A DNA stretch of 50,381 nt from Desulfobacterales bacterium (GTDB lineage Bacteria > Desulfobacterota > Desulfobacteria > Desulfobacterales > SpSt-501), in contig JAUQXK010000083.1 of assembly GCA_030834695.1 (NCBI GenBank), positions 1 through 50,381 of the forward strand. The letters are read 5' to 3'. The position numbers and the translations under genes are program-made. Positions 23,461-28,552 of this stretch are shown here, piece by piece (position 1 is the first letter of the stretch; each line of letters begins with the position of its first letter). The notes under the pieces are model-generated. The model did no database searches. It worked only from the letters and a program-made list of their open reading frames with translations, and was not told the origin of the DNA.

Positions 23461-23507
23461 CGACTGTCCGGGTTTCGTTTAGGGGTGGTTTGATTTCAAC
23501 GTATGAG

Positions 23508-23636
23508 TTATTAACCCGGCAGCTAACTACGCAAATAACGTCATGCCGAACGTGATCCGGCATCCACTTTTGTCCTGGATTCCGGCGGTTCGCCGGAATG
23601 ACTAATTGGGGCCAGTTTAACTGCCCGAGTTGCAAC
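23508..23636. repeat. Composite repeat, copy C, abutting the aro leader peptide
   Basis: The left end is TTATTAACCCGGCAGC and the right end TTAACTGCCCGAGTTGCAA, imperfect inverted repeats. The core is CGTCATGCCGAACGTGATCC plus CTGGATTCCGGCGGTTCGCC. The right end stops one or two bases before the ATG of the aromatic leader peptide, so any promoter for the aro operon must lie inside or upstream of this element. Confidence 0.8.
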
Positions 23637-23637
23637 A

Positions 23638-23718
23638 ATGACGCAAGCGTCTTCAGGCAGATTCTATTCTTACGATTGGTACTATTACTTTAGCACCGAT
23701 CTGCCTGCGGTGCGCTGA
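23638..23718 (+). CDS. Aromatic-amino-acid leader peptide (attenuator)
   Basis: A 26-codon frame from ATG at 23638 to TGA at 23716-23718 contains a dense aromatic run, residues 9-18 FYSYDWYYYF: two Phe, five Tyr and one Trp within ten codons. Such density is very unlikely by chance and matches leader peptides that sense charged aromatic tRNAs. The codons (23662-23691) sit in the loop of a hairpin whose arms CAGGCAGAT (23654-23662) and ATCTGCCTG (23699-23707) are perfectly complementary. A terminator hairpin and then aroF (DAHP synthase) follow. The ribosome site is weak (GAG in CCCGAGTTGCAACA). Confidence 0.75.
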   Translation: MTQASSGRFYSYDWYYYFSTDLPAVR

Positions 23719-23746
23719 GGGACACTCACCAGTAAAAGCGCAAAAA

Positions 23747-23833
23747 AAAGCCGGGGCGGATCTGAGGCGCCTGCGGCTTTATGTTTTAAACGAAACGGCC
23801 GCGGGAGCGAAAACACCCGCGGCCGTTTCGTTT
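23747..23833 (+). terminator. Attenuator hairpins upstream of aroF
   Basis: Two hairpins lie in tandem. The first has outer arms AAAGCCG (23747-23753) and CGGCTTT (23774-23780) with an inner GGCG/CGCC stem, followed by TTTATGTTTT. The second is a perfect 18-bp stem, AAACGAAACGGCCGCGGG (23788-23805) with CCCGCGGCCGTTTCGTTT (23816-23833), loop AGCGAAAACA, ending in a T-rich tract: a strong intrinsic terminator. The word CCTGCGG occurs at 23704-23710 and 23770-23776 and can pair (one G-U) with CCGCGGG (23799-23805) in the terminator's left arm, giving a possible antiterminator. Confidence 0.7.
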
Positions 23834-23856
23834 AATCAATGCGTGGGAGGAAAAGG

Positions 23857-24909
23857 ATGCAGGCTCATACCGACGATTTGAGAGTCAAGGGATACACTCG
23901 TCTGATTTCGCCGAAAGAAATGAAGCAGGCCATACCCGTCAGCGAGGCTGCCGGACGGACGGTGATGTCGTCCCGCGACGCCATTGCCCGGATCCTGCTT
24001 AAAGAAGACCGACGACTACTGCTCGTGGCCGGGCCCTGTTCGATTCATGACGAAAAGGGCGCGCTGGAATACGCCGAGCGGCTGCAGGCGCTGCAGCAAA
24101 AAGTCGCCGGTGTCATTTTCATCGTTATGCGGGTCTACTTCGAGAAACCGCGGACCACAGTGGGGTGGAAGGGGTTCATCAACGACCCTGGCCTGGACGG
24201 CGCCTGCGATATCAACCAGGGGTTGCGCAAGGCGCGTCAGTTGCTGCAGCGCATCAATGAGATGGGGCTCCCGGCGGGAACCGAGATGGTCGAGATGGTC
24301 ACCCCGCAGTACGTCGCCGACCTGGTCAGCTGGGGGGCGATCGGCGCGCGCACGACCGAATCCCAAGCCCACCGCGAGTTGGCCAGCGGGCTTTCCATGC
24401 CCATCGGATTCAAGAACAGCACCGACGGCAACCTGCAGACGGCCATCCATGCGATGGTCGCGGCGCGCACCCCCCAGACCTTTCTCGGCGTCGACCAGGA
24501 AGGCTACACCTGCATCGTTCAGACCACCGGCAATCCCATGGGGCACATGGTCATGCGTGGCGGAAAGCGGCCGAACTACGACCCCATCAGCATTGCCGAG
24601 GCTCAGCTGGGCTTGATCGAACACCAGTTGCCCGAGGCGATCATGGTGGACTGCTCGCATTCCAATTCATGGAAAAAATTTCAGGGGCAGGAGATGGCCT
24701 GGCGCAGTGTCGTCGAACAGCGGGTCGGCGGCAACGATGCGCTGGTCGGGCTGATGCTCGAAAGCAACCTGTTCGAGGGCAAGCAGAAATTCGGCAGCAG
24801 CCCCGCCGGGCTGGCCTACGGGGTCTCCATCACGGACGAATGCATTTCCTGGGAGACCACCGAAAAACTGGTGGCATGGGCCGCCGAAAAGATCGCCGGG
24901 GCCGTTTGA
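23857..24909 (+). CDS. aroF: 3-deoxy-7-phosphoheptulonate (DAHP) synthase, type I
   Basis: The 350-residue product matches the E. coli AroF/G/H class in length and sequence: LLLVAGPCSIHDEKGALEYA, VMRVYFEKPRTTVGWKGFIN, GARTTESQAHRELASGLSMP, IGFKNSTDGN, PEAIMVDCSHSNSWKK and LMLESNLFEG. It condenses phosphoenolpyruvate with erythrose-4-phosphate, the first step of the shikimate pathway. The N-terminal 45 residues correspond to the allosteric extension of this class, so feedback inhibition by an aromatic amino acid is expected. The start at 23857 has GGGAGG upstream. First gene of the operon aroF-aroB-aroE fusion-aroA, behind the leader peptide and terminator. Confidence 0.95.
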   Translation: MQAHTDDLRVKGYTRLISPKEMKQAIPVSEAAGRTVMSSRDAIARILLKEDRRLLLVAGPCSIHDEKGALEYAERLQALQQKVAGVIFIVMRVYFEKPRTTVGWKGFINDPGLDGACDINQGLRKARQLLQRINEMGLPAGTEMVEMVTPQYVADLVSWGAIGARTTESQAHRELASGLSMPIGFKNSTDGNLQTAIHAMVAARTPQTFLGVDQEGYTCIVQTTGNPMGHMVMRGGKRPNYDPISIAEAQLGLIEHQLPEAIMVDCSHSNSWKKFQGQEMAWRSVVEQRVGGNDALVGLMLESNLFEGKQKFGSSPAGLAYGVSITDECISWETTEKLVAWAAEKIAGAV

Positions 24910-24944
24910 GGCCTGGGGAGGCGGGAAAGGGGTACGCTCGAGTC

Positions 24945-26000
24945 ATGCAGGTGGTTGGGATTGAAAGCGCTTCCGGGCGATCATCGATTTTCATCGGGGA
25001 ACGGCTGAACAACCTGCCGAACCATCTCCCGCCGGGTCGGGCCATCGTCATCACCGACGACAATTTGCTCCGGCTGTACCGCGCCGAGCTGCCTTCGCTG
25101 CCGGTGCTGAGCATCGGATGCGGCGAGTCGGTCAAGACCCTGGAAACCGTCAAGAGTCTCTACGAAACCCTGGTGGATCTGGAGGCCGACCGCAGCACCT
25201 TTCTCATCGGAATCGGCGGCGGAGTGGTCTGCGATGTCGCCGGTTTCGTGGCCTCCACCTTCATGCGGGGGCTGCGCTTCGGTTTCGTGGCCACGACCCT
25301 CCTGGCGCAGGTCGACGCCAGCGTCGGCGGGAAAAACGGCGTCAACCTGGGAGGGTTCAAGAACCTCGTCGGGTCCTTCAACCAGCCGGAATTCGTGCTC
25401 TGCGACCTGCGTCTTCTCGACTCCCTGCCGGAAGGTGAGGTGGCCAACGGCATGGCCGAGATTGTCAAACATGCCCTGATCGCCGATGCCGGTATGTTCG
25501 CTTTTCTGGAGGAGCGCGCTGAGGAGGCCTTGGCGCTCGATCCGGCGACGATCGAAAAACTGGTCGGCCGATCGATCGCGATCAAGGCGGGAGTGGTCGG
25601 GCGCGACGAGCGCGAAGCCGGCGAGCGGCGCATCCTCAACTTCGGCCACACCTTCGGGCATGCCCTCGAAAAGGTCGGCAGATGGTCCCATGGTGAAGCC
25701 GTGAGCGTCGGCATGGTGCTTGCGGCCGGCTTGTCGGTTAAGATGGGAAGGCTGCCCGAAGCGGCGTACCAACGGATGACCGCATTGTTGCGCCGCTTGA
25801 GGCTGCCGGTCGCGGCCGCCGCCGACCCCAAGCAGGTGCTGGAAGCGCTGCGCCGGGACAAGAAACGGGAAGCCGCTGTGATCCACTTCGTGCTGTTGGA
25901 CGACATCGGACGAGCCTCGGTGAAGGAGGTCGAAATACGGGAACTGGAAAGGCAGTTAGTGGAATTCCCTGAAATTCTAAGGCAGGAATCGCGTCCATGA
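24945..26000 (+). CDS. aroB: 3-dehydroquinate synthase
   Basis: The 351-residue product converts DAHP into 3-dehydroquinate using NAD+ and a divalent metal. Diagnostic segments: IGIGGGVVCDVAGFVASTFM (NAD binding), TTLLAQVDASVGGKNGVNLG, EIVKHALIAD (metal-binding Glu), RRILNFGHTFGHALE and WSHGEAVSVGM (metal His). The ATG at 24945 lies 35 bases after aroF; a much longer in-frame extension overlaps aroF and is rejected. The stop overlaps the next ATG (ATGA), coupling it to the chorismate mutase-aroE fusion. Confidence 0.95.
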   Translation: MQVVGIESASGRSSIFIGERLNNLPNHLPPGRAIVITDDNLLRLYRAELPSLPVLSIGCGESVKTLETVKSLYETLVDLEADRSTFLIGIGGGVVCDVAGFVASTFMRGLRFGFVATTLLAQVDASVGGKNGVNLGGFKNLVGSFNQPEFVLCDLRLLDSLPEGEVANGMAEIVKHALIADAGMFAFLEERAEEALALDPATIEKLVGRSIAIKAGVVGRDEREAGERRILNFGHTFGHALEKVGRWSHGEAVSVGMVLAAGLSVKMGRLPEAAYQRMTALLRRLRLPVAAAADPKQVLEALRRDKKREAAVIHFVLLDDIGRASVKEVEIRELERQLVEFPEILRQESRP

Positions 26001-27145
26001 AAAAAATGCCGCCATCGGAAAAGAGCGCGCAGCACCTGTCCGGTGATGAGGAAAAACAACTTGCGGAACAGCGCGGGGCCATCGACCGTCTGGACCAAGA
26101 GATCCTCCGGCTGTTCAACGAACGGCTGGCAGCCGCCGGCCGGATCGGCGAACTCAAACGGCGTTTGGGCCTGCCGGTCCGGGACAACCGCCGCGAAGCC
26201 ATAGTGTTCCGGCGGCTCATGGACATCAACCGGGGCGGCCTCCTAGCGAACCGTTACGTGGTCAAGGTGTTTGCCGCCCTCATGGCGGCGGCCCGTGACG
26301 TCCAGGGAGCGCCGTCGCACGCTGCCGACGGCTTCGGGACCCCGGCCCTGTTTGCGGTTTTCGGCAACCCCGTGGTTCACAGCCTCAGCCCGGTGATGCA
26401 CAACGCGGCCTTCGCCGCCACCGGGTTCAACGGCGTTTACGCAGCCATCCGCGTCAGGGACATCCGCCTGGCCGCAGCAGGCGTCCGTTCGCTGGGACTC
26501 AGGGGCGCCAGCGTCACGCTGCCGCACAAAGAGTCGGTCATGGCCTGCCTGGACACCATCGACCCGGCGGCCCGGCGCATCCAGGCCGTGAACACCATCG
26601 TCAACGATGACGGTACGCTCAGGGGTTTCAACACGGACTGTGCCGGCGCCATGCGGGCGCTCGAGGAGAAAATCACCATATCCGGCCGGCAGGTCGCCGT
26701 CATCGGCGCCGGCGGTTCCGCACGGGCTGTGGCCCATGGCGTTCTGTCGGCCGGCGGGAAGGTGTGCGTTTTCAACCGTTCCAGGGAAAAAGGGGAGGCG
26801 CTGGCAAAGGAGTTGGGCGCGGAGTTCAGGCCCTTGGAGGCGTTCACGGCCGAGCGCATCGAGATTCTCGTCAACACCAGCCCGGTCGGAATGACGCCGC
26901 AGGTGGGACAGAGTCCCGTGCCCCGGGAAAAGCTGCGGCCGGGGATGGTGGTGATGGACATCGTCTACAATCCGCTGAAAACCAGGCTTTTGCTCGAAGC
27001 CGAAGCAGGGGGGTGCGTGACGATCGACGGGCTTGCCATGTTCGTCTACCAGGGGGCGCGGCAGTTCGAGCTGTGGACCGGACTGTCCGCGCCGGTCGAC
27101 ATCATGCGCATGGCAGTCGAAGCCGAGTTGACATCCCGTCCGTAG
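25997..27145 (+). CDS. aroE: Fusion: chorismate mutase (AroQ type) - shikimate dehydrogenase
   Basis: The 382-residue product is about 100 residues longer than a normal AroE. Residues 20-103 match AroQ-class chorismate mutase: EQRGAIDRLDQEILRLFNER, IGELKRR with K54, RDNRREA with E68. Residues 116-382 are shikimate dehydrogenase: FGNPVVHSLSPVMHN (shikimate-binding serines), LPHKE with catalytic K179, GFNTDCAG with D215, the dinucleotide loop GAGGSARAV and the C-terminal VYQGARQFELWTG. The enzyme would join two non-consecutive steps, dehydroshikimate to shikimate and chorismate to prephenate. The start overlaps the aroB stop by four bases. Whether the mutase domain is active or mainly regulatory cannot be told from sequence. 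Confidence 0.88.
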   Translation: MKKMPPSEKSAQHLSGDEEKQLAEQRGAIDRLDQEILRLFNERLAAAGRIGELKRRLGLPVRDNRREAIVFRRLMDINRGGLLANRYVVKVFAALMAAARDVQGAPSHAADGFGTPALFAVFGNPVVHSLSPVMHNAAFAATGFNGVYAAIRVRDIRLAAAGVRSLGLRGASVTLPHKESVMACLDTIDPAARRIQAVNTIVNDDGTLRGFNTDCAGAMRALEEKITISGRQVAVIGAGGSARAVAHGVLSAGGKVCVFNRSREKGEALAKELGAEFRPLEAFTAERIEILVNTSPVGMTPQVGQSPVPREKLRPGMVVMDIVYNPLKTRLLLEAEAGGCVTIDGLAMFVYQGARQFELWTGLSAPVDIMRMAVEAELTSRP

Positions 27146-27267: not shown

Positions 27268-27292
27268 TATCCGCTTGAGAAAGAGCGACTCT

Positions 27293-28552
27293 ATGCGCGC
27301 CGTCAAAACACTTTCGTCGCCGAACCAAGTGCAGGTATCCGTGCCGGGTTCCAAGAGCTACACGCACCGGGTGCTCATCGCCGCCGCGCTCTCGGACGGG
27401 CCTTGCGTGATCCAGAACGCTCTCGACAGCGAGGACACTCGGTTTACGCTTGAGGCTTTGAAAAAATGGGGCGTTCAAGTAGCAGAATCGGAGCAAGACC
27501 TGGTGGTGCATGGGTGCCAGGGCAGGCTGGCGGCCTGCTCCGAGCCGATTTTTTTAGGAAACTCCGGAACATCCATGCGCCTGCTGACCGCCGTGGCCGC
27601 ACTGGCCGAAGGCAGGTCGGTGCTGACCGGGACCGAGCGCCTCCGGGCGCGTCCGATTCAGGACCTGTTGGAGGGGCTCAATCAGCTGGGCGTGACGGCT
27701 CGATCACTGAACGGCAACGGATGCCCGCCGGTTGAAGTCGCAGGGGGCGGCGTGGCCGGCGGAAGGGCGGCTTTGAACTGCGCCCTCAGCAGCCAGTTTC
27801 TCTCGGCGTTGCTGCTGATCGGTCCGTGCACCCGCGACGGCATCGAGATCCAGGTGCTGCGGGGACCGGTATCGCGGCCTTACATCGATATCACGCTGGA
27901 GACCATGGCCCGGTTCGGAGTCCATGCCGATCGCCAGGCGTATGAATGGTTCAGAGTCCCGGGGGGCCAGCACTATCGATCCGGACCATACCGGGTGGAG
28001 CCGGACTGTTCGCAGGCCGGGTACTTCTGGGCGGCCGCGGCCATTACCGGTTCAACCATTGCGGTCAACGGAACCAGCCTGGAATCCCGACAGGGGGACA
28101 TCCGCTTGGTGGAAATCCTGGCGCGCATGGGATGCACGGTCAGCGCACGCGCGAGCGGGATCGCCGTCACGGGCGGCGAGCTGTCGGCAACCGATATCGA
28201 CATGGGCGACATCCCGGACGTGGTTCCCACGCTCGCGGTAGTGGCCGCCTTTGCCCGCGGCCGAACGATCATCCGCAGCGTGGCGCACCTGAAGGAAAAG
28301 GAAAGCGACCGGCTGGCGGCCGTATGCGCCGAGCTGAGCAAAATGGGGATCGAGTCCGGATATGACGAAGATGGGCTCTGGGTGCAGGGCGGACGGCCCA
28401 ACGGTGCGGCCATCGACTGCCACAACGACCATCGCATTGCCATGAGCTTCGCCGTAGCCGGGCTGAAGGCCGCTGGCGTCAGAATCTTGGATGAAGGCTG
28501 CGTGCAAAAGTCTTTTCCCGCCTTCTGGGAGGTCTTCGAGGGGCTTTATTGA
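27293..28552 (+). CDS. aroA: 3-phosphoshikimate 1-carboxyvinyltransferase (EPSP synthase)
   Basis: The 419-residue product catalyses the sixth shikimate-pathway step, joining shikimate-3-phosphate and phosphoenolpyruvate. Diagnostic segments: VPGSKSYTHRVLIAAALSDG (substrate Lys-Ser), LGNSGTSMRLLTAVAAL (GNSGT), SSQFLSALLLIGP, the DIPDVVPTLAVVAAFARG region with catalytic Asp, HLKEKESDRLAAV and HNDHRIAMSFAVAGL. The GNSGTSMR loop (Gly-Thr context, no GNAGTA) is a variant of the glyphosate-interacting loop. The ATG at 27293 is preferred over a TTG six codons earlier. Last gene of the operon; chorismate synthase and shikimate kinase are not in the window. Confidence 0.95.
   Translation: MRAVKTLSSPNQVQVSVPGSKSYTHRVLIAAALSDGPCVIQNALDSEDTRFTLEALKKWGVQVAESEQDLVVHGCQGRLAACSEPIFLGNSGTSMRLLTAVAALAEGRSVLTGTERLRARPIQDLLEGLNQLGVTARSLNGNGCPPVEVAGGGVAGGRAALNCALSSQFLSALLLIGPCTRDGIEIQVLRGPVSRPYIDITLETMARFGVHADRQAYEWFRVPGGQHYRSGPYRVEPDCSQAGYFWAAAAITGSTIAVNGTSLESRQGDIRLVEILARMGCTVSARASGIAVTGGELSATDIDMGDIPDVVPTLAVVAAFARGRTIIRSVAHLKEKESDRLAAVCAELSKMGIESGYDEDGLWVQGGRPNGAAIDCHNDHRIAMSFAVAGLKAAGVRILDEGCVQKSFPAFWEVFEGLY

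Follow-up and report, generated by a model that had tools for sequence, protein, structure and literature searches.

The leaders of pheL and pheST are Phe-centred. According to the relevant part of PMC11802643, the E. coli pheA (pheL) and pheST attenuators are set by charged tRNA-Phe, and in Corynebacterium glutamicum the AroR leader, with the residues Phe-Tyr-Phe, precedes aroF and responds to Phe and not to Tyr (Neshat et al. 2014, in PMC11802643). In the Salmonella his attenuator, as outlined in the section of PMC4046918 drawn on here, A:B is the default pairing, and a stall gives B:C together with D:E, which prevents the terminator E:F. The uORFC-13-1 motif, excerpted from PMC8632094, is a candidate Phe-coding upstream ORF with a terminator that lies before aroF in Acholeplasma, and for Actinobacteria the passage concerned in PMC1262725 reports that no attenuator was seen for Phe or Tyr. 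Among the literature matches listed, in a search whose scope excluded subscription papers, there was no description of aromatic attenuators in Desulfobacterota, and the portions of PMC545781 and PMC2965389 consulted hold no account of them.

The locus described here lies in a window of 50,381 nucleotides, the whole stretch of Desulfobacterales DNA that was analysed, and its features are collected in Table 1. Our analysis indicates that the aroF operon is very probably controlled by a ribosome-mediated transcription attenuator that senses charged tRNA-Tyr and tRNA-Phe and, in leaders that have a Trp codon, tRNA-Trp as well. An earlier sequence-only reading had proposed a 26-codon frame with FYSYDWYYYF at residues 9-18, ending at 23718, in front of an aroF-aroB-aroE-aroA operon; reading of the ORF confirmed the frame, and the operon was borne out by matches to TIGR00034 for aroF, TIGR01357 for aroB and TIGR01356 for aroA, with a fusion of chorismate mutase and shikimate dehydrogenase between aroB and aroA; the true start of aroB probably lies after aroF. 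The ribosome site of the window's leader is weak (CGAGTTGCAACAATG); among 111 homologous leaders an SD-like 4-mer is found at -18 to -4 in 83 and an ATG start in 96. A scan for a sigma-70-like promoter found none for the leader. The Rfam scan of the whole window returned two tRNAs only, with no Phe, Trp, His, Leu or Thr leader above the curated cut-off; at the site itself, with E up to 10, no leader family matched the plus strand (Thr_leader gave a weak match on the minus strand), nor did any Rfam T-box or metabolite riboswitch model. The 261 nt around the element fold with a z of -5.0, none of 200 shuffles being equally stable.

Table 1. Leader, pairing regions, terminators and aro genes, with positions in the window
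Feature	Position	Strand	Support or remark
Dispersed repeat, 127 bp, just upstream of the leader	23505-23631		41 matches in own genome, itself included
Leader ORF, 26 sense codons plus TGA, encoding MTQASSGRFYSYDWYYYFSTDLPAVR and stop	23638-23718	+	ORF reading; homologous leaders
Region 1 (CAGGCAGAT), just 5' of the control codons; partner region 2	23654-23662	+	1:2 duplex swap test
Control codons TTC TAT TCT TAC GAT TGG TAC TAT TAC TTT (FYSYDWYYYF, residues 9-18)	23662-23691	+	
Region 2 (GATCTGCCTGCGGTGCGC; DLPAVR), 3' end of leader ORF, partner region 1 or 3	23698-23715	+	
T1 terminator (regions 3 and 4), tail ATGTTTT, -17.2 kcal/mol	23747-23780	+	
Region 3 (GCCGGGGCGGATC), T1 left arm, complementary to region 2	23750-23762	+	2:3 duplex -21.4
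Region 4 (GGCGCCTGCGGC), T1 right arm, complementary to region 5	23766-23777	+	4:5 hairpin -18.6
T2 terminator, regions 5 and 6 in a perfect inverted repeat of 20 bp (23786-23805 with 23816-23835)	23786-23835	+	
aroF ribosome-binding site GGGAGGAAAAGG	23845-23856	+	
aroF, type I DAHP synthase	23857-24909	+	TIGR00034, 463 bits
aroB, 3-dehydroquinate synthase (ORF as listed)	24669-26000	+	TIGR01357, residues 126-425
Chorismate mutase/shikimate dehydrogenase fusion, between aroB and aroA	25997-27145	+	CM_2 26-103; TIGR00507 118-378
aroA, EPSP synthase	27275-28552	+	TIGR01356

AroF was searched for in 58 relatives, of which 19 gave a match, and, across the order, in 389 genomes, of which 150 did. 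We analysed 121 aroF upstream regions in the order; a further 31 low-ranking aroF places, and those that were not listed, lie outside this count, and the duplicates L024-L026 (the same as L002-L004) were left out. An aromatic leader, defined as a short ORF with at least five aromatic residues in eight, is present in 111/121 regions. Downstream of every one of these 111 leaders, at a distance of 6-49 nt from the stop codon, lies a hairpin that resembles a terminator, T1. The comparison supports the earlier proposal of an aromatic attenuator of the shikimate operon. When the 400 nt upstream of aroF were compared with dinucleotide-shuffled sequence, a leader-like ORF was found in 110/121 real regions versus 50/1210 shuffled ones, and when the 100 nt that follow the stop were shuffled, a T1-like hairpin arose in 53/333 cases. 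The leader-to-T1 sequences are distinct in 108 of the 111 loci (L027/L119 are one locus counted twice; L012/L128 and L177/L178 are identical). The runs contain 512 Tyr, 301 Phe and 46 Trp codons, with a mean of 7.7 aromatic codons in 11 per run. Of the three aromatic amino acids whose sensing had been suggested for the window, Tyr is found in 111/111 leaders and Phe in 106, whereas Trp is not constant, occurring in the run of 45/111; all three residues are found in 47/111 leaders.

Close relatives had been expected to keep both the run and the hairpin, and same-genus genomes whose AroF is 92, 80 and 72% identical to the window's all have both. At 68-69% identity this expectation holds for L005, which has run and hairpin, and fails for L104 and L105, which have no leader; the absence of a leader is therefore not confined to distant AroF copies. 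The ten leaderless regions among the 121 are L017, L020, L021, L104, L105, L136, L145, L151, L172 and L184. By eye, L020 and L105 sit after an aroB-like reading frame, and their aroF may be internal operon genes. In Chlorobiaceae, aromatic-looking frames precede aroF, with no constant position or motif seen by eye. Two Fibrobacteres MAGs have the frames MCNVPSNAYFFYFWRETSGG (L029, -150 to -87) and MRHVSSNSYFFYFWRETTGG (L030, -189 to -126), each followed by a CCCGGG hairpin and a T-run; these two, from outside the phylum, are probably aroF attenuators of the aromatic type with a different peptide end.

Across loci, the consensus of region 2, GGUCUGCCUGGGG, is complementary both to region 3, the T1 left arm CCGYGGGCAGACC, and to the GGCAG of region 1, which precedes the run. 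In the window the corresponding leader hairpin, already pointed out from the sequence, joins CAGGCAGAT (23654-23662) with ATCTGCCTG (23699-23707), and these arms are complementary. In an alignment of 46 loci chosen from the 111, standard pairs fill 83.0% of the cells of the 2:3 helix versus 31-44% when the strands are slid, and 38 cells are changed on both sides versus a shuffle mean of 9.0; the number of 2:3 pairs with any both-side change showed no clear excess in these loci (7 versus 5.1 in shuffles, a value reached by 78/500). The U-A pair of columns 29/88 in this helix is replaced by C-G in eight loci. For T1 (3:4) in the same alignment 93.7% of cells are paired, and both-side changes number 31 versus 9.7 in shuffles. 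Terminator and antiterminator exclude each other through a common strand, and both helices covary. Matched duplexes are also more stable on average than duplexes swapped between loci, by -20.8 versus -15.8 kcal/mol for 1:2, -20.6 versus -18.3 for 2:3 and -20.3 versus -18.3 for 4:5, with 0/10000 permutations as good in any of the three tests, in which kinship among loci was ignored. Reading and comparison of the sequences thus establish the leader frame with its aromatic run, the hairpins, complementarities that exclude one another, covariation and conservation.

The sequence-only reading had named a perfect 18-bp terminator at 23788-23833, just before the aroF ribosome site. This hairpin, T2, is perfect and correctly placed, but its stem is 20 bp long (its core, 23794-23827, has -24.6 kcal/mol), and the conserved hairpin, the main switch of the proposed attenuator, is T1, which that reading had not named: T1 is found in 111/111 leader loci versus 34/111 for T2. 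The motif CCTGCGG occurs at 23704-23710, within region 2, and at 23770-23776, in the T1 right arm, and both copies had been proposed to pair with the T2 left arm. For the second copy this is the conserved relay pair, whereas the conserved partner of the first is the T1 left arm; in the window 2:5 is possible (-16.8) but weaker than 2:3 (-21.4), and we rejected that wiring. A consensus terminator scan of the plus strand listed neither T1 nor T2, probably because it is limited to loops of at most 8 and to a T-run right after the stem.

In our folding models the ribosome was assumed to cover -14 to +15 around the P site. For RNA ending before region 4, P(2:3) exceeded 0.5 in 109/111 loci with the ribosome on the first aromatic codon; the count was 107 for the third codon, 97 for the fifth and 72 for the last, fell to 14 at the stop, and was 86/111 without a ribosome; the values for the window were 1.0, 1.0, 0.99, 0.99, 0.01 and 0.99, respectively. 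Since 2:3 is high without a ribosome, both in the family and in the window, 1:2 would have to form first for the operon to be off by default. At full-length equilibrium the mean P(3:4) over the 111 loci stood at 0.92 with no ribosome, dropped to 0.76 for an early stall and was 0.94 when the ribosome sat at the stop; an early stall lowered P(3:4) below the no-ribosome value in 61/111 loci, and the switch was full in 20/111, the window not among them. In the window P(3:4) was 0.32 without a ribosome, 0.39 with an early stall, 0.82 in mid-run and 0.50 at the stop, with P(5:6) at 0.93 and P(4:5) at 0.01-0.02 in every state. The two kinds of model therefore disagree on the effect of ribosome position (109 versus 14 of 111 with truncated transcripts), and equilibrium folding of the full-length RNA supports the switch only weakly. 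Because equilibrium switching is weak, the mechanism needs the co-transcriptional order of folding, as attenuators do, and the window's own equilibrium values mean that its switch rests on this order.

When aromatic amino acids are ample, the ribosome would reach the stop codon and cover region 2, or would depart and let 1:2 form; with region 2 occupied, region 3 would pair with region 4 to give T1, and any escaping polymerase would meet T2 (5:6). When they are short, the ribosome would stall on the early aromatic codons and cover region 1, leaving region 2 free, and 2:3 would form before region 4 is made, so that T1 could not. The freed region 4 would then pair with region 5, T2 would be prevented and transcription would enter aroF. 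One stall could in this way disarm both terminators, in a relay of the his kind in which the middle hairpin doubles as a terminator. We infer that the leader is translated, that ribosomes stall in it, that transcription terminates at T1 and T2, that the relay operates in vivo, and likewise which amino acid would be the most important.

The tandem arrangement is a recurrent variant. A second hairpin lies 7-17 nt after T1 in 35/111 loci, of which that of L115 was rejected as a T2 by eye (it is still included in the 4:5 swap test), leaving 34 tandem loci. In all 34 the complementarities of a six-segment relay are found, 1:2, 3:4 and 5:6 versus 2:3 and 4:5, and in 33 further tandem loci at the phylum level 3:4, 5:6 and 4:5 were found also. 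At equilibrium, an early stall in the 34 loci reduced the mean P(3:4) from 0.87 to 0.52 and that of 5:6 from 0.85 to 0.66, and increased that of 4:5 from 0.10 to 0.29. For RNA ending before region 6, 4:5 exceeded 0.5 in 34/34 loci once region 3 was taken away.

A simpler account is that the attenuator has a single working terminator: 2:3 would regulate T1 alone, T2 would be a leaky or inactive terminator-like hairpin that stabilises the 5' end of the mRNA or stops read-through from upstream, and the 4:5 pairing would be a by-product of the resemblance of T1 and T2. We regard this as possible though doubtful. It is favoured by the 77/111 aroF loci, L115 counted here, in which T1 stands alone and suffices, and by the GCCGYGG core common to T1 and T2, which gives 4:5 pairing for free, swapped duplexes still averaging -18.3 kcal/mol. 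It agrees too with the persistence of T2 at equilibrium in every state of the window and with the formation of 4:5 above 0.5 before region 6 in 23/34 loci with region 3 present (window 0.87), which means that 4:5 is not strictly gated by 2:3. Against it, a strong T2 without regulation would hold the operon shut, and 4:5 is better kept than its mirror pairing 3:6. Among 67 tandem loci (34 at the order level and 33 at the phylum level, a count without L295 and without L217, whose site is that of L014), 4:5 is the stronger in 51, the weaker in 15 and equal in 1 (stronger in 50/66 distinct loci). The means are -15.6 and -12.3 kcal/mol (Wilcoxon P = 4e-8, kinship ignored), a comparison in which the pairing of region 3 with region 2 could bias T1 relative to T2. 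A plain duplication of T1 into T2 would keep 4:5 and 3:6 alike, so the excess of 4:5 counts for the relay. When one locus was drawn per family from 17 families, matched 4:5 exceeded permuted 4:5 with P = 0.0068 for run length and P = 0.0034 for energy, L012 and L128 counting as two families in this test yet having an identical leader-T1 sequence. The first variable 4:5 pair is G-C in 17 loci, A-U in 8, G-U in 8 and A-C in 0, plus one misanchored row (L003). Finally, L232 and L289 keep the relay although their T1 has no U-tract, the U-tract being on the second hairpin only, and antitermination there would act through 4:5 only. The evidence as it stands supports T1 as the main terminator and T2 as a tandem terminator that the relay can join.

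The same element was followed through the phylum with a covariance model of the leader end and T1, which included the window's copy. In the window's own genome there was one strong match, the window site itself (E 3e-12, not independent because that copy is in the model); five weak matches (E 0.027-0.085) were rejected as terminators without aromatic leaders. Matches at E up to 0.01 occurred in 230/395 genomes of the phylum, a figure that includes plain terminators and is not a count of attenuators. We analysed 89 matches, made up of 29 model loci and 60 places at E up to 1e-5, mostly top-ranked with several skipped and a few lower ones; one of them, L217, is an aroF site already counted. With a criterion of at least four aromatic residues in eight, 86/89 have an aromatic leader (L245, L272 and L275 do not). 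The genes downstream are DAHP synthase in 33 cases, of both the AroFGH and the ferredoxin-domain type, 2-amino-3,7-dideoxy-D-threo-hept-6-ulosonate (ADH) synthase in 23, shikimate kinase in 11, a LIV-type ABC substrate-binding protein in 8, MBL-fold proteins in 3, acetate-CoA-ligase-like proteins in 2 and an unassigned cluster in 2, with seven single cases that include an aminotransferase, a TrpB-like protein and 3-dehydroquinate synthase II; the names come from hmmscan of one member each from nine clusters, with two for DAHP synthase. In the search of 58 relatives, G009, G029, G050 and G026, which gave no AroF match, have the same kind of switch before ADH synthase, the other entry to the pathway, so regulation seems to follow the pathway and not the enzyme. 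Among 21 genomes outside the phylum the best model match had an E of 5e-4 and 5/21 had a match at E up to 0.01; of six such matches, the three inspected have no aromatic leader.

The codon runs match the gene that follows: WWWW stands before the TrpB-like gene, Phe-dominated runs such as FFFFD and FFYFF before the ABC transporter, and F/Y(/W) runs before the genes of the common pathway. The Phe-rich leaders before LIV-type substrate-binding genes are those of L237, L242, L243, L252, L254, L257, L282 and L293, and their codons suggest that this transporter may import phenylalanine or another aromatic compound; L237 has FFSFFFFC in a leader that ends early. Aromatic leaders are likewise seen before MBL-fold genes (L249, L269, L276) and acetate-CoA-ligase-like genes (L247, L279), hinting at possible roles of these genes in aromatic amino-acid metabolism. 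Two tandem model matches with starts about 185-245 bp apart occur in G393 (contig C248, L231), G429 (contig C288) and G437 (contig C16) and are possible double attenuators in series.

On this evidence we lean towards the view that Desulfobacterota have an aromatic regulon that spans the phylum and is built on one RNA chassis, consisting of region 1, the run, region 2 at the end of the ORF and a terminator with a GCCG core. In it the run would be fitted to the gene (F/Y/W for common-pathway entry enzymes from unrelated families, WWWW for the TrpB-like gene, F for the transporter), and a recurrent tandem relay would couple the two terminators.

Two further explanations fare much worse. The first is nascent-peptide arrest, in which the GLPxVR end or the aromatic run would stall the ribosome through the peptide, as in TnaC, with the free amino acid and not uncharged tRNA as the signal. 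The leader 3' end is indeed alike in many families, commonly GLPxVR or GLPVLR (GLPVLR in 12, GLPGVR in 10 and HLPGLP in 6 of the 111), but this conservation is explained by the complementarity of the region 2 RNA to regions 3 and 1. Moreover, the end drifts, partly with the pairing kept (in several loci GLP has become GPP, GAP or GSP and region 3 has changed too), no residue of the run is fixed, F, Y and W replacing one another, and codon identity fits the pathway branch of the downstream gene, all of which makes peptide arrest very unlikely.

The second concerns the 127-bp repeat beside the window's leader, which is flanked by GAGTT direct repeats, has a further copy at 1229-1347 and looks like a MITE or REP-type element. 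It is absent from G005, whose AroF is 92% identical, and separates the leader from upstream DNA common to the window and G005; the start context of the leader is alike in both, and the leader's promoter may lie upstream of the repeat. That the window's copy is non-regulatory, either a chance aromatic frame before an ordinary pair of terminators or an attenuator decayed after the repeat was inserted, would agree with this separation by a repeat of 41 genome matches, the weak ribosome site and the absence of a promoter match, but is highly improbable, as every part of the element, from the frame with its run and region 2 to both terminators, is intact in the window and can be aligned with the 92% relative that has no repeat, and chance is excluded by the family-wide signal set against its shuffles.

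If the tandem attenuator works as proposed, a stalled ribosome disarms both terminators and basal leakage becomes the product of two small leaks, which would make the two-terminator relay a compact low-leakage device. In this phylum, whose members reduce sulfate and metals, it would also be a shared and testable means of controlling aromatic synthesis. The runs can offer clues to the substrates of the LIV-type transporter and of the MBL-fold and CoA-ligase-like genes.

Compared with the described systems, the element differs from uORFC-13-1, which, in the entry in PMC8632094, has at least one Phe codon and comprises 24 sequences from Acholeplasma and environmental DNA only. With pheA and pheST, in the account excerpted from PMC11802643, it shares a leader that controls aromatic genes, but the target genes are others. 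A leader with all three aromatic residues in front of such an operon had earlier been taken for a distinct design; for Phe and Tyr codons there is a precedent in C. glutamicum AroR, in the same account likewise an attenuator that works through the ribosome and precedes a gene for DAHP synthase (PMC11802643). Unlike AroR as described there, the Desulfobacterota leaders have longer F/Y(/W) runs and a conserved region 2 at the end of the ORF, and belong to another phylum, features that set the two apart by description, and a third of the Desulfobacterales aroF loci have tandem terminators. With the Salmonella his attenuator the window shares a run of control codons and the same alternation of strands (PMC4046918, in the section on his). 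In his, E:F is the terminator that this section names, whereas in the window and the counted tandem loci the middle hairpin 3:4, the equivalent of C:D, has its own U-rich tail; L232 and L289, with a single terminator, have the plain his form.
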